From: Acetobacteraceae bacterium
Lineage (GTDB): Bacteria; Pseudomonadota; Alphaproteobacteria; Acetobacterales; Acetobacteraceae
Reading direction: 5' to 3'
Assembly: GCA_019241425.1 (NCBI GenBank)
Contig: JAFAXA010000293.1
Location: 1 to 50,582, forward strand
Length of the DNA: 50,582 nucleotides
The translations under genes were made by a program, and so were the position numbers. This document shows, one piece after another, positions 14,116 through 43,886 of this stretch. The notes under the pieces were generated by a model. The model had not been told where the DNA came from and did not search any database. It worked only from the letters and a program-made list of their open reading frames with translations. How positions within the stretch are numbered: position 1 is the first letter of the stretch; each line of letters opens with the position of its first letter.

Positions 14116-14679
14116 TCAGGGCTGGAGGTGCGGATTGGACCACCGGGCCCGCAACAGCCCGCTTTCGGCGGCAACTTCCCATCGTGGCGGCGGCCGCACC
14201 ACCCGCGTCGTCGTGTTTCCAGCGAGCGCGGTCCTGTACTGCGGCGCCAGCGCGAGCGCATGACCGCCTTGTTCCAGGTCCACTTCCTCCCCGGACACCG
14301 CCGTGATTTTCCAGCCTGCGACGATCTGGCCGGGCTCTACGAGCACCGGCTTCGCGCCCCCCGGCGGTTCGAAAATGGCGACACGCTGGCTGGGCGTCGT
14401 GATGATCCCAGCCAGCCGCGGTAGTTCGGCCTGTACGGCGCTCGTTTGTTTGACGTCGGGCCTGCGGTCACGCGCGAAGAGCGGCCGGGCAAGGCTCACC
14501 GTTGCCCAGCGCTCGACGGCACTTGCTTCCGGCGCGGTCGATCGGACCGTGTCGCCTGGAACGCGCCTCGCCTCGCCGGTGCCGCGGCGAACGCCCTGCT
14601 CGTCGTCCGTGCCGAAATGCGACAACTCGGCGGCCACGATCGCCGCGAGCAGACCGCATGTCAGTCCGAGCAGGCGCAT
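14116..14679 (-). CDS. Type II secretion GspN/GspC-like membrane-anchored protein
   Basis: N-terminal hydrophobic segment; SLARPLFARDRRP; LPRLAGIITTPSQRVAIFEP...LVEPGQIVAGWKITAVSGEEVDLEQGG resembles GspC/GspN/PilP homology regions; ATG at 14679 overlaps the upstream TGA by 1 nt. Confidence 0.6.
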   Translation of the reverse strand: MRLLGLTCGLLAAIVAAELSHFGTDDEQGVRRGTGEARRVPGDTVRSTAPEASAVERWATVSLARPLFARDRRPDVKQTSAVQAELPRLAGIITTPSQRVAIFEPPGGAKPVLVEPGQIVAGWKITAVSGEEVDLEQGGHALALAPQYRTALAGNTTTRVVRPPPRWEVAAESGLLRARWSNPHLQP

Positions 14680-16619
14680 CAATCGCCGGTCTCCGCCAGC
14701 GCCGAACCGAGCGGCTCGTCGAAGCGCAGCAGTCGTCCCGCATTGGCCATTCCGGCCAGGGTACTGAAATTGTGCACAACGGCCGCGACGATCGCTCCTT
14801 CAGGACCCAGCATGCCCGTGCCGGCGAGAGCGACGAGCAGGCACGTCCAACCAAGCCCCATCGCGACGTTCACATGGATGGTGCGGCGGCATCGCCGGCT
14901 CAACCGCAGACACGTGCCAAGGCGACGCAGATCGCTGGTCATCAACACGATGTCAGCCGAGGCGAGCGCAACGTCGGTGCCCTGGGCTCCCATCGCCACA
15001 CCGACGGCCCCCGCCTTCAGGGCAAGGCTGTCATTGATGCCGTCGCCCACGACCAGAGGTCGGTAGCCGTCCTCGAGTTCCCGAAGCACGCGGTCCATCT
15101 TCTGCTGGGGCAAGGCTTCGGCGTAGATCTCCGAAATGCCGAGCGCCTCCCCGATCCGGCGCGCGACGCGCTGGCGATCGCCGGTCAACAACATTTGGCG
15201 CCGCAAGCCGAGTGCCTTCAGTTCGGCGAGCGCGGCGCCCGCCTCGGGGCGAGGCTGGTCAGCCAACATGAGCCAGCCGAGGAAGGTCGTGCCACGGCTC
15301 ACGCCGACAATCGGTCCATCGTGCTCCGGCAGCGGGGTCGTGGGCACGCCGAGTTGCCCGAAAAGCTCCATCCGGCCCAGACACACGGTCTCGCCATTCG
15401 CAGTCGCGGTCAGCCCGAGGCCGCTGACTTCCTGCACATCCCCGAGCGGCAGCCGTTCCGGCGGCGACACAAGACCGGCCAATCCGCGGCTCACCGGGTG
15501 CGAACTGCGGGCACCGAGTGAGGCGGCAAGCCGCACGATCTCGGAGACCGGAACGGTTGCCGCGACCCGCAGGAGAGAAAGCTCCCCGAGCGTGACGGTG
15601 CCCGTCTTGTCGAACACCACGGACGTGACCTCGGCCGCGTGCTCGAGAAAGGCCGACCCTTTGATCAGGATGCCGTGACGGGCGGCAACGGCAATCGCGG
15701 CGATGGCCGTTGCCGGGGCTGCCAGCACCAGTGCGCAGGGACAGGCGGCGACCAGAACCGCCAACATCGCCTGCGAGGATTGCGTCGTGAGCCACGCAGC
15801 AACCGCGATGAGCACGATCAGCGTGATATAGGGCCCGGCAAAACGTTCGAGGATCCGCGTCACCCGGGGCTTCGCCTGCTCCGCTTTCTCCATCAACTGA
15901 ATGATCTTGCCGAGCGTGGTCTCCTGCCCGACGCGGTTCACCCGCATGATCAACGGCCCGCGCAGGTTGATCGATCCGGCCAGCACCGGATCATTGTCCG
16001 AAACATCCGCCGGCACCGATTCACCGGTCAGCGACGCAGTATCCAGGCTGGACCGGCCGCTGATAATGGTGGCGTCCACCGGTGCGCGATCGCCGGCGCG
16101 AAGCTCGATCCGATCGCCGACGCGGATATCAGCCGTCGGCACCTCGGCGACGGTGCCGTCCGCACCGATCCGGCGTGTCGTCGTCGAGACCAGCCGGCTC
16201 ATGGCGCGTATCGCCTCCTGGGACCCGAGGAGGCTCCGTTCTTCCAGCACGTGACCCACTGTCATAACGATCGGAAGGATGGCCGCGGTCATCAGGTCGC
16301 CCGTCGCCCAGGCCGCGATCAATGCGATCGCGACCAGCAGGTCCGTCATGCCGTGCAAGCTCGGCTGAACGACGCTGTTCCAGCCTGCCGACAGGACCGG
16401 AACGGCGACAAGCGCGGCGGCGCCGGCGGCGACCAGGTCCGCGATATACCGCTCGTCGGGAAGCAGGATCCGCCACAGCACGGCGATGCAGAGCAAGCCG
16501 ACCGCCGCCATCGCCAGGAATAGGCGCAGACCGAGCAGCCATTTGGCCCCCGGCCCGAGCAGAGACAGATCGTCGGGATCGAGGCCGCGGGTCTCCGGAG
16601 CGCTTGCGGATACGCTCAT
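14679..16619 (-). CDS. Heavy-metal translocating P1B-type ATPase lacking an N-terminal HMA domain
   Basis: ACPCALVLAAP, VFDKTGTVT, SSHPVSRGLA, LTGDRQRVA, VVGDGINDSLALKAGAVGVAMGAQGTDVALASADIVLM. Confidence 0.95.
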   Translation of the reverse strand: MSVSASAPETRGLDPDDLSLLGPGAKWLLGLRLFLAMAAVGLLCIAVLWRILLPDERYIADLVAAGAAALVAVPVLSAGWNSVVQPSLHGMTDLLVAIALIAAWATGDLMTAAILPIVMTVGHVLEERSLLGSQEAIRAMSRLVSTTTRRIGADGTVAEVPTADIRVGDRIELRAGDRAPVDATIISGRSSLDTASLTGESVPADVSDNDPVLAGSINLRGPLIMRVNRVGQETTLGKIIQLMEKAEQAKPRVTRILERFAGPYITLIVLIAVAAWLTTQSSQAMLAVLVAACPCALVLAAPATAIAAIAVAARHGILIKGSAFLEHAAEVTSVVFDKTGTVTLGELSLLRVAATVPVSEIVRLAASLGARSSHPVSRGLAGLVSPPERLPLGDVQEVSGLGLTATANGETVCLGRMELFGQLGVPTTPLPEHDGPIVGVSRGTTFLGWLMLADQPRPEAGAALAELKALGLRRQMLLTGDRQRVARRIGEALGISEIYAEALPQQKMDRVLRELEDGYRPLVVGDGINDSLALKAGAVGVAMGAQGTDVALASADIVLMTSDLRRLGTCLRLSRRCRRTIHVNVAMGLGWTCLLVALAGTGMLGPEGAIVAAVVHNFSTLAGMANAGRLLRFDEPLGSALAETGD

Positions 16620-17689
16620 TCGTCCGGTCCCGGGACGATGACGGATTGTCCGTTACGCATATCCACGGTGGTCACGTGACCGACCTTGCGCAGGATGGCG
16701 CCGATGTGGTCGCGGTAATACTGACCGAGCAGACTCTCGCGGTTGGCCGCGTTCAGTTCCGCATGCAACAGACCGATATCGGCGGTCTCCGCCGACGCGG
16801 CGCGGATTTGTTCTTCCGCCGCTGCTTGCGCTTCGCTGCGACTGCGGTCATGCGCGCGCTCGGCTTCCTGCAGGGTGCGCGCGGCATCCGTGCGCGCCGC
16901 TGCCACGGTTTGGTCGGCGATCTGGGAGGCCGTCAACACCCCGTCGAAGGCCGCCTTGGCCATCGGCGGCAGCAACGCCACCATGTCGATACGCGTAACC
17001 TCGACCCCCAGGCCGGCGCCGTTATTCTGCAAAGCCACCAAGCGTTGGTTGACGCTCCTCACCAGTTCCCCACGCAGCGCCTGCCGCCGGGTGGCAAGCT
17101 CGCCGCTCACCGCCGCGTCCGTGTCTTCCGGGCGCGCGACGAGAAAATCGTCGAGGTCGTGGCCGGAAACCGTCGCCACCGCGCTCGCGCGGTAGATCCG
17201 CTGCAAGGCAGGCTCTACATGCTCGCGCGCGAGAACGTAGTCGCCGGGCTCCGCAACACGATAATAGAGCGTCGCTTCGTAGCGGACGACACTGCCATCC
17301 GCGGTGAGAAAATATTGGCCGTTCCAGGCGTCCTTCTGATGCCGGAGCGTGACCACGTCATCCGGCTGACGCACCTCGAAATCGGTCTCGGCTGACGGAC
17401 CGAGGGAGGCGGGCATCGCGATCTTGAGCGCAATCTGGTGATCGTAGGCGGGCAGCAACGTGATCTGCTCGATCGGGTCCGGCCATGCGAGAACCAAACC
17501 CGCATCCTGAACGCGTTCGATCTGGCCGAAGCGCTGCACCACCGCGCGGCTATCCGGCGGTACTTGCCGCACATTGCCGACCGCCCAACCGGCCGCCAGC
17601 AGCAGCACAGCGACAAGACACATGCGAAATCCGAGGCCCACCATGTCGGCGGCGTTGAACCTGGCGCCCGCCTGAAGAACGGGTCTCAC
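16616..17689 (-). CDS. SPFH/Band 7 protein, HflK-like
   Basis: N-terminal TM; VPPDSRAVVQRFGQIERVQDAGLVLAWPDPIEQITLLP; A/E/R-rich helical C-terminal region (QEAERAHDRSRSEAQAAAEEQIRAA); GTG start, 4-nt overlap. Confidence 0.85.
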   Translation of the reverse strand: MRPVLQAGARFNAADMVGLGFRMCLVAVLLLAAGWAVGNVRQVPPDSRAVVQRFGQIERVQDAGLVLAWPDPIEQITLLPAYDHQIALKIAMPASLGPSAETDFEVRQPDDVVTLRHQKDAWNGQYFLTADGSVVRYEATLYYRVAEPGDYVLAREHVEPALQRIYRASAVATVSGHDLDDFLVARPEDTDAAVSGELATRRQALRGELVRSVNQRLVALQNNGAGLGVEVTRIDMVALLPPMAKAAFDGVLTASQIADQTVAAARTDAARTLQEAERAHDRSRSEAQAAAEEQIRAASAETADIGLLHAELNAANRESLLGQYYRDHIGAILRKVGHVTTVDMRNGQSVIVPGPDE

Positions 17690-18741
17690 CGGAGTTGGCG
17701 TCCTATCGGATCGGACGCCGGTCCCGGCGCCCCCTCGGCCCGCCCGACCTGCAATTCGGAAATCGGCGGCGAATGCGATGGCTCGGATTCCGGCGCGGAT
17801 GGGCCGGGCGCTGCCGGCAGTTCCTCGACAAGCGCCCGGAACGGTTGCGCATCGGTGCGCAGGATGAGGCGCGTCTTCGGACCGATCGTCGCGCCGAGCG
17901 TGTCGAGCGACCGCACCAAGGTGTAGAGTTGAGGGTCAACAGCATACGCCTCGGCATGGATCGTCGCGGCCTTTTCCCGCCCTTTCGCCTTGATTTCGGC
18001 AACTTCCTGCTGCGCCTGCGCGCCAATCAGGCGGGCGTCACGCAAAGCGTCAGACCGGATGGCGGCGGCGGCGCGCAATCCTTCCGCCGTTCGTTGGGCG
18101 GCCACCGTTTCACGCTCCGCTCGCATGCGGGCGACCGTGGCCGCGAGCGTTTCCGCCGGCAGGCTGAGGCGCTCCACCCCCGTTTGAACGATTCGGATGC
18201 CGTACGTGTCCAGGACCTGCTGATAAAGGCTGGCCTGTAGCTGTTGTTCGAACGCCGCCAGCCGCGCCTCGTGCCGATCCGCGTTGATGAGATTGGTGAG
18301 GCTGAAATTGCTGGCCGTCAGTTGCAGCGCTGAGCCGAGAAAGCTGCGAAGCTGACGGGCGATGTCGTCCGGATCGATGTGGCCCGTCCGCAAAAACTGC
18401 TTGATGTGTGCAGGATCACGGTCGACTTGCCAGGCGACATAGGCCTGCACGAGGATGCGCAATCCCTCTCGCGTGCCGACATCCTGCAACCCGCTCGACG
18501 TCGTACGCAGCCGCAGATCGACGGGGATCGTGCCCTCGATCGGCGCCGGCGCTTTCCATGCCAGGCCGGGCTCGGTCAGCACGCGAACCGGTTTTCCGAA
18601 CTGGGTCACAACAACGGCACGATTGGGCGCCACCATCAACAACGCGGAGGTCGCGCCGGCGGCGCACAGGAACGCCACGGCGGCCAAGATGCGCAACGCG
18701 GGGTTCAGCTTTCCGCTTCGACCTGCGGTCTGCGCGCTCAT
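17686..18741 (-). CDS. SPFH/Band 7 protein, HflC-like
   Basis: VAPNRAVVVTQFGKPVRVLTEPGLAWKAPAPIEGTIPVDLRLRTT; TYGIRIVQTGVERLSLPAETLAATVARMRAERETVAAQRTAEG matches the HflC pattern. Confidence 0.88.
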   Translation of the reverse strand: MSAQTAGRSGKLNPALRILAAVAFLCAAGATSALLMVAPNRAVVVTQFGKPVRVLTEPGLAWKAPAPIEGTIPVDLRLRTTSSGLQDVGTREGLRILVQAYVAWQVDRDPAHIKQFLRTGHIDPDDIARQLRSFLGSALQLTASNFSLTNLINADRHEARLAAFEQQLQASLYQQVLDTYGIRIVQTGVERLSLPAETLAATVARMRAERETVAAQRTAEGLRAAAAIRSDALRDARLIGAQAQQEVAEIKAKGREKAATIHAEAYAVDPQLYTLVRSLDTLGATIGPKTRLILRTDAQPFRALVEELPAAPGPSAPESEPSHSPPISELQVGRAEGAPGPASDPIGRQLR

Positions 18742-20636
18742 GGCTCCCTCTCCCCCGACGCGGCGCGAGGTTGCAACCCGTCTCGGGCCCCGCCCGGGGG
18801 TCGCAGATCGACCACGGGCAGTCCCGTGCCGCTCAATCGATGGTCCAGGATTTCGAGCGGGACATTCGCCAATGCCGCCTTGATATCGGTGAAATAGCGC
18901 TCGAGCAGAAACGGCTGGCTTGCTGCGCGGTACGGACGATCATCGGCAATGATCTCGGTCAGACCAGTTTGAGCGGCGCTGATGCTCTCCTGGCTCAGCG
19001 CCGATGCTTCATCGATGGCGCTATGGGCATCCCGCTCGGCAACGCTTCGTGTGGTCTCGGCGCGTCCCCGTTCCGTGGCAATCGAACTCGTCGCGGCGAT
19101 TTCCGCCGCTTGGACATGACGATACGCTAAGGCGGCACCACTGGGCGGGTGAATGGCCTCGATCGTCACCGCAACAATGTCGAGGCCGGAGTCGAGCCGA
19201 TCCAGGGCTTGCTGCAGACCCGCTCGCAGACTGGCCGCGATGATGCCGTGATTCTCGCCGAGTACTGTCGGCAGTGTGCTCGTGGCAAGATAGTCGGCGA
19301 GCAAGCGGCCGGATAGTGAGTGCACCAACACCTCCGGGTCCGCCGTTCGATAGAGCGCGGCTCGCGCAGCGTCATCGGTCAGCCCGACACGATAAAGCAC
19401 CCGGACGGTCACGCTCACGGCCTGAAAGCTTGGTTGCGACCGATCGCCGGCAGCGATCAGATACGGAGCCTCGCCGGGTGTTTGTGAATCCCACAGCCGG
19501 TTGGCGCTCGGCGGCGGATCGCCCTCGGCTGCCGAGGCGTCGGCGACAGGGGAGTCGGCGCCGGCATCGCTGTCCGCGTTGCTGATGAGAACCGCGTGCA
19601 GTGTGCCGTATTCGACGTGGCGGACCGCGCCGAATGGCCGCGGGAGCACCAGATGCAGACCAGGCTGCAGGATCGCGACAACCCGACCAAATCGCTCGTA
19701 GGAGCCCCGTTCATTCAGATCGATCCGCGTGACCCCGGTCAAACCCCAGCAACACAGGAGCATCAACAACAAGACCGGTGCCGCCGCCGCTCGCATGAAG
19801 CGCAACGCCCAGCTCCGGGTGAAGTCCACGCCGAACTCCGATCGCACCACGACGGCCGCGCGTGCGGGCGAGAGCAGTCGGCCACAGAGAAAGCCCGCGA
19901 CAACGCTCGCAATTGGCGCGCGAGCGGCCGTGTGGTCGCGAGATGGCAGGAACCACGATCCCAAAGCCCTGAGCACGAGTTCCAGGCAAACGGCGAGCAA
20001 AGCGGCGGAGATGGCGGAACGACTCCAGTAGACGAGTGCGACGTCCGGAGCGTCCGTCAATGCGAGAAGTGAAGTTGCGAAGAGGCAGCCCACCGGGAGA
20101 AACAGCAAGCCGCCGAGATCGACGGTTTCGGGCAGTTGCTCCGCTGGAATCGCTGCAAGGGAGCGCTGCGCTATGAGGCACGGTGTCGCCAGTATCAGCA
20201 AGGCGCTTGCGACGGCGAAGCCTCCGGGTGATCCCAGCGCTTGCGGAAGGTGAGCACCAGGGGGCCAGTCGCTGATGATCGCCAACGCGGCCGCTCCGGC
20301 GAAAAGGAGAACCACCGCCATCCCCGAGCCCTCAGCAAAGCGCGATTTCACAGAGACCGGCAGACCACGCCGGCGGGCAAGCGCGGCAGCGGCACAGGCA
20401 ACAAGCCCCAGCGCGGCAAGCAGCAACGAGGCCACACCGGCGCCGGCCAAACCGAAGGCGCGGAACGCGTCAAGCCATGGCAGTTTGCAGCGGGCGAGCA
20501 AGGCGGACATCGTACCCGCGGCGGCGAGATACACGAAACCGAGTGTCATCAAGGGGCGAACCAGCCGCGCGGCGACGACGGGCTGCGAAGGAGGCGGAGG
20601 CTCCGGCCGGGGAGACGCTGTGTGGTCTGCGGTCAT
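18738..20636 (-). CDS. Large polytopic membrane protein with C-terminal SPFH/Band 7 (HflK-like) domain
   Basis: About 7 hydrophobic segments, then GLTGVTRIDLNERGSYERFGRVVAILQPGLHLVLPRPFGAVRHVEYGTLHAVLI and LGENHGIIAASLRAGLQQALDRLDSGLDIVAVTIEAIHPPSGAALAYRHVQAAEI. The ATG at 20636 avoids overlap with the upstream gene. Confidence 0.82.
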   Translation of the reverse strand: MTADHTASPRPEPPPPSQPVVAARLVRPLMTLGFVYLAAAGTMSALLARCKLPWLDAFRAFGLAGAGVASLLLAALGLVACAAAALARRRGLPVSVKSRFAEGSGMAVVLLFAGAAALAIISDWPPGAHLPQALGSPGGFAVASALLILATPCLIAQRSLAAIPAEQLPETVDLGGLLFLPVGCLFATSLLALTDAPDVALVYWSRSAISAALLAVCLELVLRALGSWFLPSRDHTAARAPIASVVAGFLCGRLLSPARAAVVVRSEFGVDFTRSWALRFMRAAAAPVLLLMLLCCWGLTGVTRIDLNERGSYERFGRVVAILQPGLHLVLPRPFGAVRHVEYGTLHAVLISNADSDAGADSPVADASAAEGDPPPSANRLWDSQTPGEAPYLIAAGDRSQPSFQAVSVTVRVLYRVGLTDDAARAALYRTADPEVLVHSLSGRLLADYLATSTLPTVLGENHGIIAASLRAGLQQALDRLDSGLDIVAVTIEAIHPPSGAALAYRHVQAAEIAATSSIATERGRAETTRSVAERDAHSAIDEASALSQESISAAQTGLTEIIADDRPYRAASQPFLLERYFTDIKAALANVPLEILDHRLSGTGLPVVDLRPPGGARDGLQPRAASGEREP

Positions 20637-20721: not shown

Positions 20722-22647
20722 TCAGTGGAAGTCAAACATGTCCATCAGATTGCTGATCGCCGGGCTGTTGATCGGTGCGTAGGGGTTGGAGGAGTTCGTG
20801 ATCGGATTCGGAAGATTGTCGCGCCCGTTCTCCGACACCGGAGGAAGCCGCCAGTTCTTTTCCACGAACTTCAGGAACGAGACATGATCGGCGTAGGCGT
20901 GCGATATGCGGCCGCCGCGTGAATAGGGCGACACCACGATGGCCGGGATCCGTGTGCCGTCACCGAAAAAATCGAGCGGCTGGATATAGCCCGAATCCCA
21001 ATACCCACCGCCCTCGTCGAAGGTAACGATGATCGCCGTATGGGTCCAAAGGTCGCGGTTATGCTCCGTGTGTTCGATGATCCTGCGCGTGAACGCCTCG
21101 AAGAGATCGAGCTTCGATGATGCCGGATGACCATCCAGCAACCCATCCGGCTTCACGATCGAGACGGCCGGGAGATGACCCGAACTGATATCCGCTTCCA
21201 GATCCGTCACATCGGCCAGATGCGCCTGGCGCTGGGCCGCATCCGTCATGATGGCGGTCTCGTAGAGGAAAGGATTGCAGATGTTGCAGTAGAGTGACCC
21301 GAGTTCGCTGTTCGGGTCCTTGAGATAGAAGTTCCAGCCGGCCCCATAGTATTTCCATGACAGGCCGGCATCGTTCAGCGTGTCGCCGATCGTGCGCACG
21401 GGCGAGGGCGGGATCGTGAAGGTGGAGGTATTGACGGTGCCGTCACCGAAATATCCGGGATTATAGTTATTGAGAAGGTAGTAGGCGCCCTGTTTGCACC
21501 TCGTTGGCGGCGTATAGGGCAGGCTCGCGAGATAGCTTACGACAGCGCCGACGCCGGGCTGGTTCATGTCGGAGCAGTTGCTGTAGCTGCCGCCGCTGTA
21601 ACCGTCCTGCGTATAGTAGTTGTTTGTGCCAGCTTGCGGGTTCGGGTTTTCGATTTCGTTCGTTGGCGGCGTTGCAATGTTGCCCTGGCCGTCCGTGTAG
21701 TAGATGGCGAGGCCCGTGCCGAGGGCAATGTGATTGGCGCCCGTGCCGCCCATGATCGACTGGTGGAAGTTGTCGCTCATCGTGTAGGTGTCGGCGAGGT
21801 GCTTGAACCACGGCGCATCGCCCTTCGCCATGTTCCAGAAGCCCATAGAGGTGGAACCTTCACCCGTCGTTTGGTTGGTGAAGTTTGCCGGCTGCGGCTT
21901 GCCGTTGCTGCCCGCCCCGATCGTCGTTTCCACCCAGGGGAACAGCGAATTGGTGCAGCCGGACGGGTTCGCCGCCGTGATCGTTGCGGGGGAGCAGTTC
22001 ACCTGCTGCCACATCTGATAGAATCGATGCACGGGGCTGGCGGTGTAGCTGTCATAGGGCAGATTCGGGCCGCTCAGTTGAAACGGACCGTTTGGCAGGG
22101 CCGTCGCGTTCGGAATGCGCGTGTCGACGGAGTCGCTGGGCAGTCCGGTCGCGCCCGTCGTGAGCAGCTTGTAGTCACGCGTCGGCAAGCCATTCTGGAT
22201 CAAAGTTTCCGCCGCGGTCGCAGCGGCGAGCGTTGCGAATGGCGGCGGATTTTCGTCGCTCGCCGCTGTGGGAGCCCCGTCCGTCATCGCGGGCGGCAGC
22301 ACGGAATAGAGCGTCTGTCCGTCCGGGCTGAGCTGGTAGGTGGTGCGGTCCGAGGCTTCCTTCTGCGCCGCTTTTGCGAAGTTCGGGCCGGGAGTCCCGT
22401 CGGCGTTCACGATGCCCTCCGACAGGAGATTGTACACCGTTTGACCAGCCTGGGGCGTGTAGGTGGCGAACACGTGATCAAACGTGCGATTCTCGCCGAT
22501 AATCAGGATGACGTGCTCGATCGGCGTGGTCGGTGTGCGAGCGGCCGACTGTGCGAACGCTGGGCCTACGGTGAGCGATGTCACCGCCAAGGTCGCAAGT
22601 CCGCGACCGAAGGGGTGATTGGATTGCGGCAATAAACGCCTTCTCAT
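20722..22647 (-). CDS. Phosphoesterase family protein (phospholipase C / AcpA-like), secreted
   Basis: Signal-like N-terminus; IEHVILIIGENRTFDHVFATY; IMGGTGANHIAL; SIVKPDGLLDGHPASSKLD; IIVTFDEGGGYWD. ATG at 22647 is preceded by GGAGGG. Confidence 0.88.
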   Translation of the reverse strand: MRRRLLPQSNHPFGRGLATLAVTSLTVGPAFAQSAARTPTTPIEHVILIIGENRTFDHVFATYTPQAGQTVYNLLSEGIVNADGTPGPNFAKAAQKEASDRTTYQLSPDGQTLYSVLPPAMTDGAPTAASDENPPPFATLAAATAAETLIQNGLPTRDYKLLTTGATGLPSDSVDTRIPNATALPNGPFQLSGPNLPYDSYTASPVHRFYQMWQQVNCSPATITAANPSGCTNSLFPWVETTIGAGSNGKPQPANFTNQTTGEGSTSMGFWNMAKGDAPWFKHLADTYTMSDNFHQSIMGGTGANHIALGTGLAIYYTDGQGNIATPPTNEIENPNPQAGTNNYYTQDGYSGGSYSNCSDMNQPGVGAVVSYLASLPYTPPTRCKQGAYYLLNNYNPGYFGDGTVNTSTFTIPPSPVRTIGDTLNDAGLSWKYYGAGWNFYLKDPNSELGSLYCNICNPFLYETAIMTDAAQRQAHLADVTDLEADISSGHLPAVSIVKPDGLLDGHPASSKLDLFEAFTRRIIEHTEHNRDLWTHTAIIVTFDEGGGYWDSGYIQPLDFFGDGTRIPAIVVSPYSRGGRISHAYADHVSFLKFVEKNWRLPPVSENGRDNLPNPITNSSNPYAPINSPAISNLMDMFDFH

Positions 22648-23057
22648 CTCGTGTTCCCTCCGCATGCGCAATCCACCGCACGCTCATCACGTGCTTGCGG
22701 ACTCACATTGATGTTTGCCGAGCGTATGTTGCCTTGCCTATATTCCAAACCCCGAAAGGTCAACCACCCCGTTGCGCGAAAATAGCGTATGAAACTTGAA
22801 TTTCCGGTGTATGTCGGATTGATGACGCGCACGGTGACCATCAAATGTCACGCCATTGACGTAGAACGGCATGGGCCGGACGGGCTACACGCCGCCGAGT
22901 TTCGACGAGGGGCGGATGTCCGACATCGCATTGCAGCGTGGTGTCACAGGAGCGTCGCCACGTGGCAGACTGCCTTGCGCAACGGCCGTGCAAGCCGGAC
23001 TTGCGAAGCGGCAGATGAACGGTCAGCGGCGGTTGAGACGCCCACGGTTGGTGTGAC

Positions 23058-24770
23058 ATGCATTACGCCGTACTCGCTACCGACTATGACGGCACCATCG
23101 CCCATGACGGTGTTGTGGACGACGCAACACTCGACGCGCTGGAACGCCTGAAGGCCGGACAGCGTCGGCTGGTCCTTGTCACTGGCCGCGAATTGCCCGA
23201 CCTCCAGCGCGAAATGCCGCGCCTCGACCTGTTCGACCGCGTTGTCGCGGAGAATGGTGCTCTGCTTTACACGCCAGCGACGCGGGAACAGAAACCGCTG
23301 GGCGAGGCACCGCCCGCCGCCTTCGTCGAGCGGTTGCGCGCGCTCGAGGTATCGCCCCTCTCCGTCGGGCGGGTCATTGTCGCGAGTTGGGAACCCAACG
23401 AGGGCAAGGTGCTCGACGCCATCCGCGACCTCGGGCTCGAGTTGCAGATCATCTTCAACAAAGGCGCGGTTATGGTGCTGCCCGCCGGGGTCAACAAGGC
23501 AACCGGTCTCCTCGCCGCGCTCTGCGATCTTGGCTTGTCTCCGCTTGACTGCGTGGGGGTCGGTGACGCCGAAAACGACAACGCGTTCCTGGAAGCAAGC
23601 GGATTCTCGGTTGCGGTCGCCAACGCCCTGCCCGCACTCAAGGAGCGGGCGACGTTCGTAACGGAGGGTCAGCGCGGGGCGGGTGTCGCGGAACTGATCG
23701 ACCGCATGCTCGCGGACGATCTGGAGGGGCTCGATACGCATGAGCCGCGCCAAAGTGTCCTGATCGCAGAACCGCGCGACGGCGATGACGGTCCGGCGTT
23801 GCACCTGCAGCCGAAACGGGAAACCCTGCTGCTCGCGGGCGCTTCGGGAGGCGGCAAGTCGACGCTGACGTTGGGACTGTTGGAGCGGCTAGGCGACGCC
23901 GGCTTTCAGTACTGCGTCATCGACCCGGAAGGCGACTACGAGGGCAGCCTAGCCGCCAGCTACGTGGGCGACGCCAGGCAGCCGGCCGACGTGTCGGCAG
24001 TGATGGGAGAGTTGCGCAAGCCTCAGCAAAGCGTGGCCGTCAATCTGCTCGGCGTTCCGCTACAGGACAGGCCGGCTTTCTACGCCGCCCTGCTTCCGGA
24101 GCTGGCGCGGTTGCGCGAGACCACCGGCCGCCCGCATTTCGTTGTGGTCGACGAGGCGCATCATCTGCTGCCGACTGAATGGAATCCCCCGGCGGGAGAT
24201 TTTTCGGCGAGCCTCCAAGGCACGATGTTCGTGACGGTGCATCCGGAGCATCTCTCGCCGCGCGTGCTCGATCGCGTGGACCGGATGCTGGTGATCGGCC
24301 GCGATCCGGCGAAGGCGGCCGGCGCGTTCTGCGGCAGCCGCGGCTTGCATTGCCCCGCACCCGACGTGAAGCTGGAAACCGGGGAGGTGATGACGTTCGC
24401 CGCCGGTGATCCCGATATTCGCGTGATGCGGGTCGTGCCCGGCAACGGCACGCGGCAGCGGCACGTGCGCAAATACGCGGAAGGGAAGCTCGGTGAGGAT
24501 AAGAGCTTCTATTTTCGCGGGCCGGACCGCCGGCTCAATCTGAGGGCGCACAATCTCACGCTCTTTGTGCAGATCGCCGAGGGCGTCGATGCCGAGACAT
24601 GGGAGCATCACCGCCGGGCGGGCGATTTCTCCGAATGGATCGGATCCGCCATCAAGGATGGCGAACTCGCGCGCGCAATCGCCGCCATCGAGCAAAGCGA
24701 AGCGGCGACGGACGACTCACGACGCCAAATCCAGGAAGCAATCGAGGCCAAGTACACCGCACCGGCCTAA
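23058..24770 (+). CDS. HAD-IIB family phosphatase fused to a P-loop (HerA/FtsK-like) ATPase and a C-terminal domain
   Basis: HAD motifs ATDYDGTIAHDG and GVGDAENDNAF; Walker A LAGASGGGKSTLT; Walker B HFVVVDEAHHLLP; C-terminal YFRGPDRRLNLRAHNLTLFVQIAEGVDAETWEHHRRAGDFSEWIGSAIKDGELA. Confidence 0.85.
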   Translation: MHYAVLATDYDGTIAHDGVVDDATLDALERLKAGQRRLVLVTGRELPDLQREMPRLDLFDRVVAENGALLYTPATREQKPLGEAPPAAFVERLRALEVSPLSVGRVIVASWEPNEGKVLDAIRDLGLELQIIFNKGAVMVLPAGVNKATGLLAALCDLGLSPLDCVGVGDAENDNAFLEASGFSVAVANALPALKERATFVTEGQRGAGVAELIDRMLADDLEGLDTHEPRQSVLIAEPRDGDDGPALHLQPKRETLLLAGASGGGKSTLTLGLLERLGDAGFQYCVIDPEGDYEGSLAASYVGDARQPADVSAVMGELRKPQQSVAVNLLGVPLQDRPAFYAALLPELARLRETTGRPHFVVVDEAHHLLPTEWNPPAGDFSASLQGTMFVTVHPEHLSPRVLDRVDRMLVIGRDPAKAAGAFCGSRGLHCPAPDVKLETGEVMTFAAGDPDIRVMRVVPGNGTRQRHVRKYAEGKLGEDKSFYFRGPDRRLNLRAHNLTLFVQIAEGVDAETWEHHRRAGDFSEWIGSAIKDGELARAIAAIEQSEAATDDSRRQIQEAIEAKYTAPA

Positions 24771-40926: not shown

Positions 40927-42180
40927 TCACTGCTCCTCCTGCACCGAATGCAGGAAGGCCAGGATCGACTTGAATTGGTCATCCGTGAAAACGCCGGTCC
41001 AGTTCGGCATGCCCTTGTCGGGACGACCATTGGTGACAGTGACGAAAAACACCTGGTCCATGGTCTCGCCGTAGCGATGGTGCAGCAGGCGCAGATTGAT
41101 GCGGCGTTCGGCCTGGACCGCATCCGGACCGTGGCAATGCGCGCAGGTGCTGTTGAACAGATCCGCGCCCTGATGAACCGTGTCGGCATCAGCGACCGCA
41201 GCGTTCTGGCTGCTCGAAGCGGAGCCGGCGCCCTCGCCGGCCGGCAGTTGCGGCATCGGACGGGCGCCGGGCGGCAGCGGCGCGCCTTTGCTGACGGACG
41301 GGATCTGAAGATCTTCGCCGAAACCGACACCGCCCTCCGCCGCCGCCGTCCGGACCGGCGCCGAATCGGCGATCGGAAACCCGTAGCGTTTGGCGAGAGC
41401 GCGGATCACCGCCCCGTCTTGCGCGAGGGCGCCGTCGACCTTGTCGCGCAACGCGTCCTCGCCGGGCGCAAAGGCGATCGCCGCATTCCACCGCATCCCG
41501 TCCGCCGCGAGCGGCAGGACGCGATAACGGGAGTCCTTGGGGCTGGCGTTCGCGTAGCCAGCAGAGGGCCCCCATAACAGGGCTGCATCGGCGCGTCCGT
41601 CTTCGAGCGCCTGCAAACCTTCTTCGGGCGACGTTACAGTGACGGCGTCGACATCTTCTCGTTTCGCCATCAAGGCTTGCGCCGGCGATCCGAACTGGAC
41701 CGCGACGCGCTTGCCGGAAAGCGCGGGCAAGTCGGCAAGCGGCGAATCGACGCGCGTCACCAGCGCGTAGCCGACCTCGATCACGGGCGCGGACACCGTC
41801 ATGCGATTCTTGCCGCCGCCCTCCGACCCGGATGGCACGCCGAAGAACATGTCGCATTTGCCCGCCAACAGCGTCGTCCGCAGCATGCGCTTCGGCGCGT
41901 ACGTCGCCGCCCACACCACGTCCAGCGGACGCCCGAGCTGCTCCGCCAGATGCTCCGCCAATTCAAGGTAGAATCCTGGCCTCGCACCGGCGTTGCCCGT
42001 GAACGGCAGATTGTCCGGGTCGGCGCAGACCCGCAACGGCGCGCCTTCGTTCGGAGCGGCGGCGATACCCCTCCCAGCAACGCCGCACACGGCGAGCGCG
42101 AGCCCGATCGCGACGGCGGTGGTCCGCGCCATAGAGGACCGACCGGCCCCTGCGCCCTTTCCTTGCGTTGTCGCGTTCAT
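40927..42180 (-). CDS. Fusion of quinoprotein-associated periplasmic substrate-binding protein (XoxJ/MxaJ-like) and cytochrome c
   Basis: LRVCADPDNLPFTGNAGARPGFYLELAEHLAEQLGRPLDVVWAATYAPKRMLRTTL; C-terminal STCAHCHGPDA haem site and KGMPNW. Confidence 0.9.
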   Translation of the reverse strand: MNATTQGKGAGAGRSSMARTTAVAIGLALAVCGVAGRGIAAAPNEGAPLRVCADPDNLPFTGNAGARPGFYLELAEHLAEQLGRPLDVVWAATYAPKRMLRTTLLAGKCDMFFGVPSGSEGGGKNRMTVSAPVIEVGYALVTRVDSPLADLPALSGKRVAVQFGSPAQALMAKREDVDAVTVTSPEEGLQALEDGRADAALLWGPSAGYANASPKDSRYRVLPLAADGMRWNAAIAFAPGEDALRDKVDGALAQDGAVIRALAKRYGFPIADSAPVRTAAAEGGVGFGEDLQIPSVSKGAPLPPGARPMPQLPAGEGAGSASSSQNAAVADADTVHQGADLFNSTCAHCHGPDAVQAERRINLRLLHHRYGETMDQVFFVTVTNGRPDKGMPNWTGVFTDDQFKSILAFLHSVQEEQ

Positions 42181-42185
42181 GGCGC

Positions 42186-43886
42186 TTAATCCGGCAAGGC
42201 GAAAACAAGCAGCGCCCCGCCTTCCGGCGTGAGTGCGGCAATCTGTTTGCCGGGGTCCCCCATCGCCGCGGGCTGCGAAACGGTGCGACCGACGACAACG
42301 CCGACATACTGCTTGCCGTCAACCTCGAAGCTCATACCGCCCGCGCCGATGCCGGTGCCGACATTGATCTGCCAGAGATTCTGACCGGTCCTGGCGTTCA
42401 GCGCATGGAAGATGCCGGTAATGTCGCCGAAGAACACGAGGTTTCCGGCAGTCGTCATCGTGCCACCGTTATAGGGCAGCGGCAATTTTATCTCCCAAGC
42501 CTTTTTGCGCGCGACCGGATCCCACGCCATCAGGGCGCCGCTATAGCCGCCCGGACCCGCATAAACGTTGAAGTCCGAACCGAGGTAGAACACGCCGCGC
42601 CGATAGGCGATCTCGACGCTCTTCATGTCGGTGCACATGTTGTTGGCGGCGATGTAGGCGAGGCCGGTATCGGGATTGAATGAGATAGGCTGCCAGTTCT
42701 TGCCGCCGATCCAGGCCGGGCAGACGCCGGTAACCGGATGGCCCATGGATGGCCGGTTGGCGGGATCGATGATGGGCGTGCCGTTCTCGACGTCGTAACC
42801 CTTGGCCCAGTTCACGGGAACGAACGGATCGGCCGACACGAGTTGGCCGGTGTCCCGGTTGAGCACGAACAAGAACCCGTTCCGGTCGGCCTTCATCAAG
42901 GCGGGCAGCGTCTTGCCGTTCACCGGCAGATCCGCGAGCACCGCCTCGTTCACCCCGTCATAGTCCCAAACGTCCGCCGGTGTCTCCTGAAACCACCATT
43001 TGATGGCGCCGGTCTTCGGGTCGAGCGCGAGCGTGCTCGCGCTGTAGAGATTGGACAGCTTGCCGTAATTGGCCGAGCCGGCGCTGCGCACCGAATCATT
43101 CCACGGGCCGGGGTTGCTGGTGCCCCAGAACAACGTGTCTGTCTTCGGGTCGTATGAGCCCACGCCCCAGGCCGCCGCGCCGCCGTGCTCGGCGCTGTCT
43201 CCTTTCCACGTATCGCCGTTCGGCTCGTCCTTGGCGGCCGTGAGCCACGTTTTCCAGATCTGCTTGCCGGTCGCCGCATCGTAGCCCTGCAGCGCGCCGC
43301 GCGCCCCGTAATCGCCGCCGGCAAAGCCGGTGATGACGACGTTGCCCACCACCACGGGCGGCGATGTGATCGCCGAGCCCTGCTTGTAGTCGACGACCTG
43401 CGCGTTCCACAGTTCTTCGCCCGTTTTCGCATCGAGCGCGACCAGATGCCCGTCCAGGCGCCCGAGGAAGATCTTGCCGTCCGCGTAGCTGACGCCGCGG
43501 CTGTCGACATCGCAGCACGCGTATTGAATCATGTCGTCGGGAAGCTCGGGCTGATACTGCCACTTGATACGGCCGGTTTTTGCGTTCAGCGCGAAGACGG
43601 TCTTGGGTCCCCATGAACTGGAAACATACATCGTGTCCCCGATCACGATCGGGGTGGCCTCGTTGGAGCGGAGTGAGCCGAGTTGCAGGGTATACGCCAG
43701 CCGCAGCTTCGAAACGTTCGCGTCATTGATTTGCGTGAGCGGGCTGTAGCGGGTGTTCGCGTAGGTCCGGCCGTAGGTGCTCCACTCGCCGGGCTGGTCG
43801 TCGGCGGCCGACGCCGCGACCGGCGCCCCGAGGATGCACAAGGCGGCGAGCGCCGCCGACCGCAGAAGCGTTGAGCGCGTTTTCAT
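42186..43886 (-). CDS. PQQ-dependent methanol/ethanol-type alcohol dehydrogenase with lanthanide-type Asp (XoxF-like)
   Basis: YACCDVDSRGVSY vicinal cysteines; PADVWDYDGVNEAVL; W-motif repeats (GEELWNAQVV, KQIWKTWL, AIKWWFQE, QNLWQINVG). Confidence 0.92.
   Translation of the reverse strand: MKTRSTLLRSAALAALCILGAPVAASAADDQPGEWSTYGRTYANTRYSPLTQINDANVSKLRLAYTLQLGSLRSNEATPIVIGDTMYVSSSWGPKTVFALNAKTGRIKWQYQPELPDDMIQYACCDVDSRGVSYADGKIFLGRLDGHLVALDAKTGEELWNAQVVDYKQGSAITSPPVVVGNVVITGFAGGDYGARGALQGYDAATGKQIWKTWLTAAKDEPNGDTWKGDSAEHGGAAAWGVGSYDPKTDTLFWGTSNPGPWNDSVRSAGSANYGKLSNLYSASTLALDPKTGAIKWWFQETPADVWDYDGVNEAVLADLPVNGKTLPALMKADRNGFLFVLNRDTGQLVSADPFVPVNWAKGYDVENGTPIIDPANRPSMGHPVTGVCPAWIGGKNWQPISFNPDTGLAYIAANNMCTDMKSVEIAYRRGVFYLGSDFNVYAGPGGYSGALMAWDPVARKKAWEIKLPLPYNGGTMTTAGNLVFFGDITGIFHALNARTGQNLWQINVGTGIGAGGMSFEVDGKQYVGVVVGRTVSQPAAMGDPGKQIAALTPEGGALLVFALPD

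Follow-up and report, generated by a model that had tools for sequence, protein, structure and literature searches.

An SPFH gene trio linked to HmtA-clade P1B ATPases across proteobacterial classes, and its variant in an Acetobacteraceae genome

The window analysed here, a stretch of 50,582 nucleotides from an Acetobacteraceae genome, carries an operon in which genes for three SPFH proteins precede a P1B-type ATPase gene. Judged by sequence, this operon is a variant of the hmtA module, without histidine tails and with a weakly GspC/PilP-like extra gene and an upstream phosphoesterase. Its homology to the hmtA locus of Pseudomonas aeruginosa is practically certain. An earlier impression that the combination lacked any experimental description was therefore mistaken, as the operon corresponds to the locus PA2434-PA2439 (PMC4542158, PMC11761036, PMC8531726) and the combination has already been seen experimentally; in the papers we searched, the SPFH genes and the ATPase are nowhere read as one module. 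Work on zinc uptake has taken the genes of the hmtA locus one at a time, and its SPFH genes were set aside as ‘HflK/HflC protease modulators’. The exceptionless pairing of one pump subtype with three SPFH proteins in the sampled genomes, together with a metal-binding tail that one of the three usually has, points to a possible transporter-in-a-cage module.

Organization of the operon

Five open reading frames occupy positions 14116-20636 on the minus strand, as the initial annotation had placed them. Gene A (18738..20636) encodes a polytopic SPFH protein of 632 aa, recognized by its Band_7 match, hydropathy, AF2 model and position in the tree; an alternative TTG start at 20735 is less likely. 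It is followed by gene B (17686..18741), an HflC-type SPFH protein of 351 aa (Band_7, profile comparison with structures, tree), and gene C (16616..17689), an HflK-type SPFH protein of 357 aa (Band_7, TIGR01933 below its cut-off, tree). Next come a 646-aa P1B-type ATPase of the HmtA clade (14679..16619; TIGR01525 at 504 bits, tree) and a fifth gene (14116..14679) whose product has one N-terminal TM helix and a possible GspC/PilP homology region, the latter on sub-cut-off PilP/XpsN matches. Upstream of gene A by about 86 nt lies a PF04185 phosphoesterase gene, acid phosphatase/PLC-like and likewise on the minus strand (20722..22671; PF04185 at 1.3e-52).

The junction overlaps are as first described: ATGA at 18738-18741, GTGA at 17686-17689, ATGA at 16616-16619 and TGATG at 14679, the last being 1 nt with the ATG start of the fifth gene and 4 nt with a TTG start at 14682. 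Because overlapping starts and stops are ordinary in operons, it is conservation, not overlap, that counts. It also holds that no FtsH gene adjoins the operon; FtsH is found in two pieces on other contigs (C117 and C229), and a canonical hflK-hflC pair on contig C293, so that the SPFH proteins of the window are not the only HflK and HflC of the genome. With canonical hflKC and FtsH located elsewhere in the genome, we rejected the reading of the locus as an hflKC operon displaced from FtsH.

Conservation of the four-gene core

Protein A, searched against 120 genomes of the same family, gave seven clear further matches (E < 1e-50) above a background of HflK-like matches (E > 1e-19), and the order A > B > C > ATPase is kept in the family relatives wherever contigs are long enough. 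Across a sample of 399 Pseudomonadota genomes, a profile of B matched 11, including the window's own, all at E < 1e-133 and with no further match down to the limit of 1e-60. A profile of the ATPase clade matched the identical 11 genomes at 1078-1151 bits, again with no further match in the 399 down to 1e-170. This test of co-occurrence comprises 399 genomes, with matches in five genera, mostly Pseudomonas. All ten loci fetched from the sample show the cassette; in some of them longer opposite-strand ORFs mask a gene in the automatic gene list.

In a scan of genomes of named species, a relative of B turned up in 516 stretches, and the best 80 of these, nearly all from Pseudomonas, were examined for gene order. 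The four-gene order of polytopic SPFH, HflC-like, HflK-like and P1B ATPase is present in 80 of these 80, and the same order recurs in enterobacterial, other gamma-, beta- and alphaproteobacterial loci. The conservation of the core order across classes places the operon far beyond chance; the neighbourhood search removes the objection that the arrangement might not be conserved in other genomes. The coupling of SPFH proteins to a P1B ATPase, as proposed in the initial annotation, is conserved and distinct from the genome's own hflKC, while the fifth gene stands outside the conserved core.

The cassette is also carried on plasmids of Burkholderia ubonensis, Paraburkholderia sprentiae, Rhizobium tumorigenes and Klebsiella aerogenes, and on the P. 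sprentiae plasmid it sits a few kb from genes for a zinc ABC transporter and a PCuAC copper chaperone. Such mobility, and the general role of SPFH proteins in organizing membranes, could be taken to mean that the trio builds a lipid microdomain of a general kind, which shields membrane proteins during metal stress, and that its genes are linked to the pump only by shared regulation and cassette transfer. We consider this very unlikely, as neither part occurs without the other in the sampled genomes and the ATPases belong to a dedicated clade. These same two observations argue for a specific partnership between the SPFH proteins and the ATPase.

Several loci deserve separate mention. On the conjugative plasmid of K. 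aerogenes (L229, 7118-12844) the cassette lies less than 3 kb from a Tn3-family transposase. In two enterobacterial-like genomes it is found between a ytfL-like gene and an msrA-tamA-tamB region (L076, 4279-10166; locus GC 52-54%), and no DNA related to the cassette was found in the E. coli genomes searched. In one enterobacterial-like genome the HflC-like gene is split by a single in-frame TAG (L078, 7214-8197), the result of either sequencing error or decay.

A distinct clade of P1B ATPases

The ATPase of the window has the DKTGT motif, a CPx motif in TM6 and a match to heavy-metal family models, which identify it as P1B-type; it exceeds the cut-offs of both TIGR01525 and TIGR01512 (504 and 459 bits). 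Its motifs are CPC at 293-295 (TM6), DKTGT at 337-341, GLGW at 588-591 (TM7) and HNFST at 616-620 (TM8). Placed in a tree beside CopA, ZntA and further P1B ATPases, it falls inside the HmtA group, which forms a single clade (100/100) on a long branch, sister to the ZntA group and outside it. The clade keeps CPC in TM6 together with GLGW in TM7 and HNx(S/G)T in TM8. The P1B-2 (ZntA) signature is absent: GLGW takes the place of GLK with its TM7 lysine, and HNxST or HNxGT that of DTG or DSG with its TM8 aspartate. On these divergent TM7 and TM8 residues, the HmtA-clade ATPases are a P1B subtype that by its motifs fits neither P1B-1 nor P1B-2, and their recognition as a clade of their own (CPC / GLGW / HNx(S/G)T) is, at the level of sequence, new here. 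The best-scoring solved structure is 7qbz, a ‘cadmium translocating’ P-type ATPase with SPC and HEGST, motifs of the P1B-4 type, at the equivalent positions. The only other P1B ATPase found in the source genome, which is 90% complete, groups with copper-type pumps.

P. aeruginosa itself is absent from the best 80 of the 516 loci. One locus considered as a stand-in (G531) was discarded on its neighbouring genes. Another (G524), with a glyA-like gene nearby, was used as the example of the P. aeruginosa group (PA7-type), since the azurin of that genome is 98% identical to P. aeruginosa azurin. The window ATPase is 58% identical to this PA7-type HmtA. A protein at the position of PA2436 is encoded in only a few loci, from the P. 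aeruginosa/citronellolis group; at that position L069 (9142-9594) has a 150-aa secreted-looking protein between the HflK-like gene and the ATPase.

The SPFH proteins and their histidine tails

All three SPFH proteins match Band_7 (A, E 1.6e-11; B, 4e-29; C, 1.1e-16), and none reaches the NCBIfam equivalog cut-offs of TIGR01932/TIGR01933 (82 against 134 bits; 77 and 53 against 159 bits). Hydropathy and the AF2 model give gene A about seven predicted TM helices, followed by an HflK-type SPFH domain and a helix of about 91 residues; the model has a pLDDT of 61.5 and its best PDB folds are HflK and HflC. Given an N-terminus on the inside, seven TM helices would bring the SPFH domain of A into the periplasm, where that of HflK lies. 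B and C are single-TM SPFH proteins by hydropathy. In the SPFH tree each of the clades A, B and C is supported at 100/99 or above, B is the sister clade of canonical HflC (95/90), and A and C group together (90/82) beside HflK; the B family profile matches the E. coli HflC structures at E ~1e-25. The assignment of two of the SPFH proteins to the HflK type (A and C) and one to the HflC type (B), as read from trees and profiles, is new here.

So too is the histidine-rich tail on most of the HflC-like proteins. A histidine-rich N-terminus with at least 10 His is present on B in 80 of the 80 best loci (of 516), and 7-15 His are found in this tail in most of the other alpha-, beta- and gammaproteobacterial loci examined. 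The canonical HflC sequences in the tree start almost directly at the TM helix. In E. coli, HflC has its N-terminus in the cytoplasm, and the tail of most HflC-like proteins of the cassette is probably cytoplasmic as well. The ATPase also has a histidine-rich N-terminus in 16 of the best 80 loci (of 516).

The relationship of B to HflC and of A and C to HflK invites a different explanation, in which the trio are FtsH modulators for metal stress that bind this zinc protease and retune it under zinc shortage, the pump being merely co-regulated. FtsH is indeed a zinc enzyme, and PA2437-2439 are annotated in the literature as HflK/HflC. However, canonical hflKC coexists in the genome, none of the examined loci contains FtsH, the co-occurrence that proved perfect involves a single ATPase subtype, and both the histidine tails and the polytopic HflK variant are left unexplained, so we regard retuning of FtsH as unlikely.

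Relation to the hmtA locus of Pseudomonas aeruginosa

The P. aeruginosa locus comprises PA2439 (HflK family, the first gene), PA2438 (HflC), PA2437 (HflC family), PA2436, PA2435 (HmtA) and PA2434. The window shares its four gene types in the same order, with the ATPase inside the HmtA clade. It differs in lacking histidine tails on B and the ATPase, a PA2436-like gene and a Zur box that could be found, and in adding the GspC-like gene and the upstream phosphoesterase.

RNA-seq of a znuA mutant shows the listed genes of PA2434-PA2439 raised by 5.6 to 14.4 fold (PMC4542158), and the proteins of the locus are more abundant under zinc depletion, with a significance that differs by protein and method (PMC11761036). 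Zur shifts the promoter of PA2439, the first gene, in gel-shift assays, and in the same study hmtA mRNA showed no Zn response (PMC8531726). For HmtA, import of both Zn and Cu has been reported, which is unusual for a P1B pump (PMC8456098); a review calls this import unconfirmed and asks for confirmation (PMC10393844). Since HmtA has been reported as an importer (PMC8456098, PMC10393844), the premise of the initial annotation that P1B ATPases export metals is doubtful here. Papers annotate PA2437-2439 as HflK/HflC protease modulators (PMC11761036), and our literature search found none that joins SPFH with HmtA or treats the SPFH genes as part of a transporter.

Zur-like GTTATATCGTAAC boxes occur in 68 of the 80 promoters of the best (of 516), Pseudomonas-type loci, the box pattern having been defined after inspecting a few of the same promoters. 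No GTTATA..TAAC-like Zur box precedes gene A or the phosphoesterase in the window, where this Pseudomonas-type pattern may not be the host's own. Neither the source genome's znuA, a fragment at the end of a contig, nor its two FUR-family regions yielded a Zur box that could serve for calibration.

A proposed cage around the pump

The partnership, the clades and the tails are features of the sequences themselves; the single complex, the metal relay and the inward transport are what we infer. The mechanism that we consider most likely, and reasonably probable, is a dedicated HflKC-like cage that would house or stabilize a metal pump and handle its metal. From their sequences, we give the SPFH proteins a little better than an even chance of physically housing or scaffolding the ATPase. 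A, B and C would assemble an HflKC-like ring with their SPFH domains in the periplasm, housing or clustering the ATPase as HflKC houses FtsH, and the cage would stabilize the ATPase or control its access to metal. Where N-terminal histidine tails are present on B, as they are in most relatives, these tails, at times joined by those of the pump, would encircle the pump's cytoplasmic opening and act there as a relay or buffer for Zn/Cu. By homology with HmtA, the pump would take up Zn and/or Cu when these are scarce; for inward Zn/Cu transport in the source organism we put the odds at even. Given the loss of the histidine tails, the cage in the window's lineage may serve as a scaffold only, or its cargo or regulation may have shifted.

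A stronger version, which we offer only tentatively, is that one subclass of metal P-type ATPases has SPFH proteins as its obligate cage-chaperone, with a closed periplasmic compartment surrounding the pump and a cytoplasmic ring of histidine tails that channel Zn/Cu. If true, it would explain how a pump of the P1B fold could act as a high-affinity importer, and the window's lineage would have kept the cage without the tails.

Known systems offer partial parallels. The HflK-HflC-FtsH cage of E. coli (7VHP, 7WI3) likewise has both HflK- and HflC-related SPFH types, but the window has three SPFH genes rather than two, one of them polytopic, and their partner gene encodes a P1B ATPase instead of FtsH, with canonical hflKC separate. 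In mycobacteria the P1B pump CtpC is scaffolded by PacL1, a membrane protein with a His-rich metal-binding motif (PMC9374683). There too a P1B ATPase is encoded with a membrane protein bearing a His-rich motif, but PacL1 is a DUF1490 protein and not SPFH, CtpC is an exporter, and the foci are flotillin-independent. The human stomatin-aquaporin 1 complex (PDB 9zd2), by its database title, likewise pairs a stomatin-family assembly with a transport protein, and differs in organism and cargo. Whether bacterial SPFH cages serve cargoes besides FtsH, and how metal import by a P1B ATPase could work, are now testable questions, and the tail-less variant of the window is a natural test of the need for tails.

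The variant in the window

The histidine-rich N-terminal tail of B is missing in the window and in two relatives (G063 and G093), and nearly missing on the Klebsiella plasmid; the ATPase is without a histidine tail in the window and G063. The phosphoesterase neighbour is common to the window, G063 and G093 only (loci L037 and L047). It is possibly co-transcribed with the operon, though not part of the core. In another genome (G109) a different, phosphatase-looking gene lies upstream of the cassette. A GTGAC-N8-GTCAC inverted repeat, read by eye about 170 nt before the phosphoesterase start (22820-22860, minus strand), is a possible operator.

These neighbours could suggest that the ATPase exports metal to the periplasm, the direction of most P1B ATPases, and loads a secreted metalloenzyme, here the PF04185 phosphoesterase, with the SPFH cage as the loading site. 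The phosphoesterase is directly upstream in the window, G063 and G093, and the phosphatase-looking gene of G109, judged without a family scan, is another gene in the same place. Set against this, a phosphatase neighbour is missing in the great majority of loci, and HmtA, a reported importer, is induced when zinc is scarce, so a loading role appears very unlikely.

The fifth gene had been called GspN/GspC-like. The resemblance stands as far as sub-cut-off PilP/XpsN matches (E ~0.002; 19 against 35 and 17.5 against 400 bits) and finds no structural counterpart, as its AF2 model has no significant fold match. No gsp genes are present among the window proteins scanned, and on these three grounds a type II secretion GspC/GspN assignment was rejected. 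The only homologue found, 40% identical, is encoded in L037 of G063, which is the closest relative among those whose contigs reach far enough.

Other features of the window

Two further features of the window lie outside the operon. An ORF at 23058-24770 on the plus strand encodes an unusual fusion, in which a Cof-type HAD hydrolase makes up the first ~215 aa and is joined to an AAA/HerA-like P-loop domain. At 40930-43886 on the minus strand a PQQ dehydrogenase adjoins a protein that fuses a solute-binding domain to a cytochrome c domain; the pair may represent a methanol dehydrogenase of the XoxF type and its XoxJ/XoxG-like partners in fused form.
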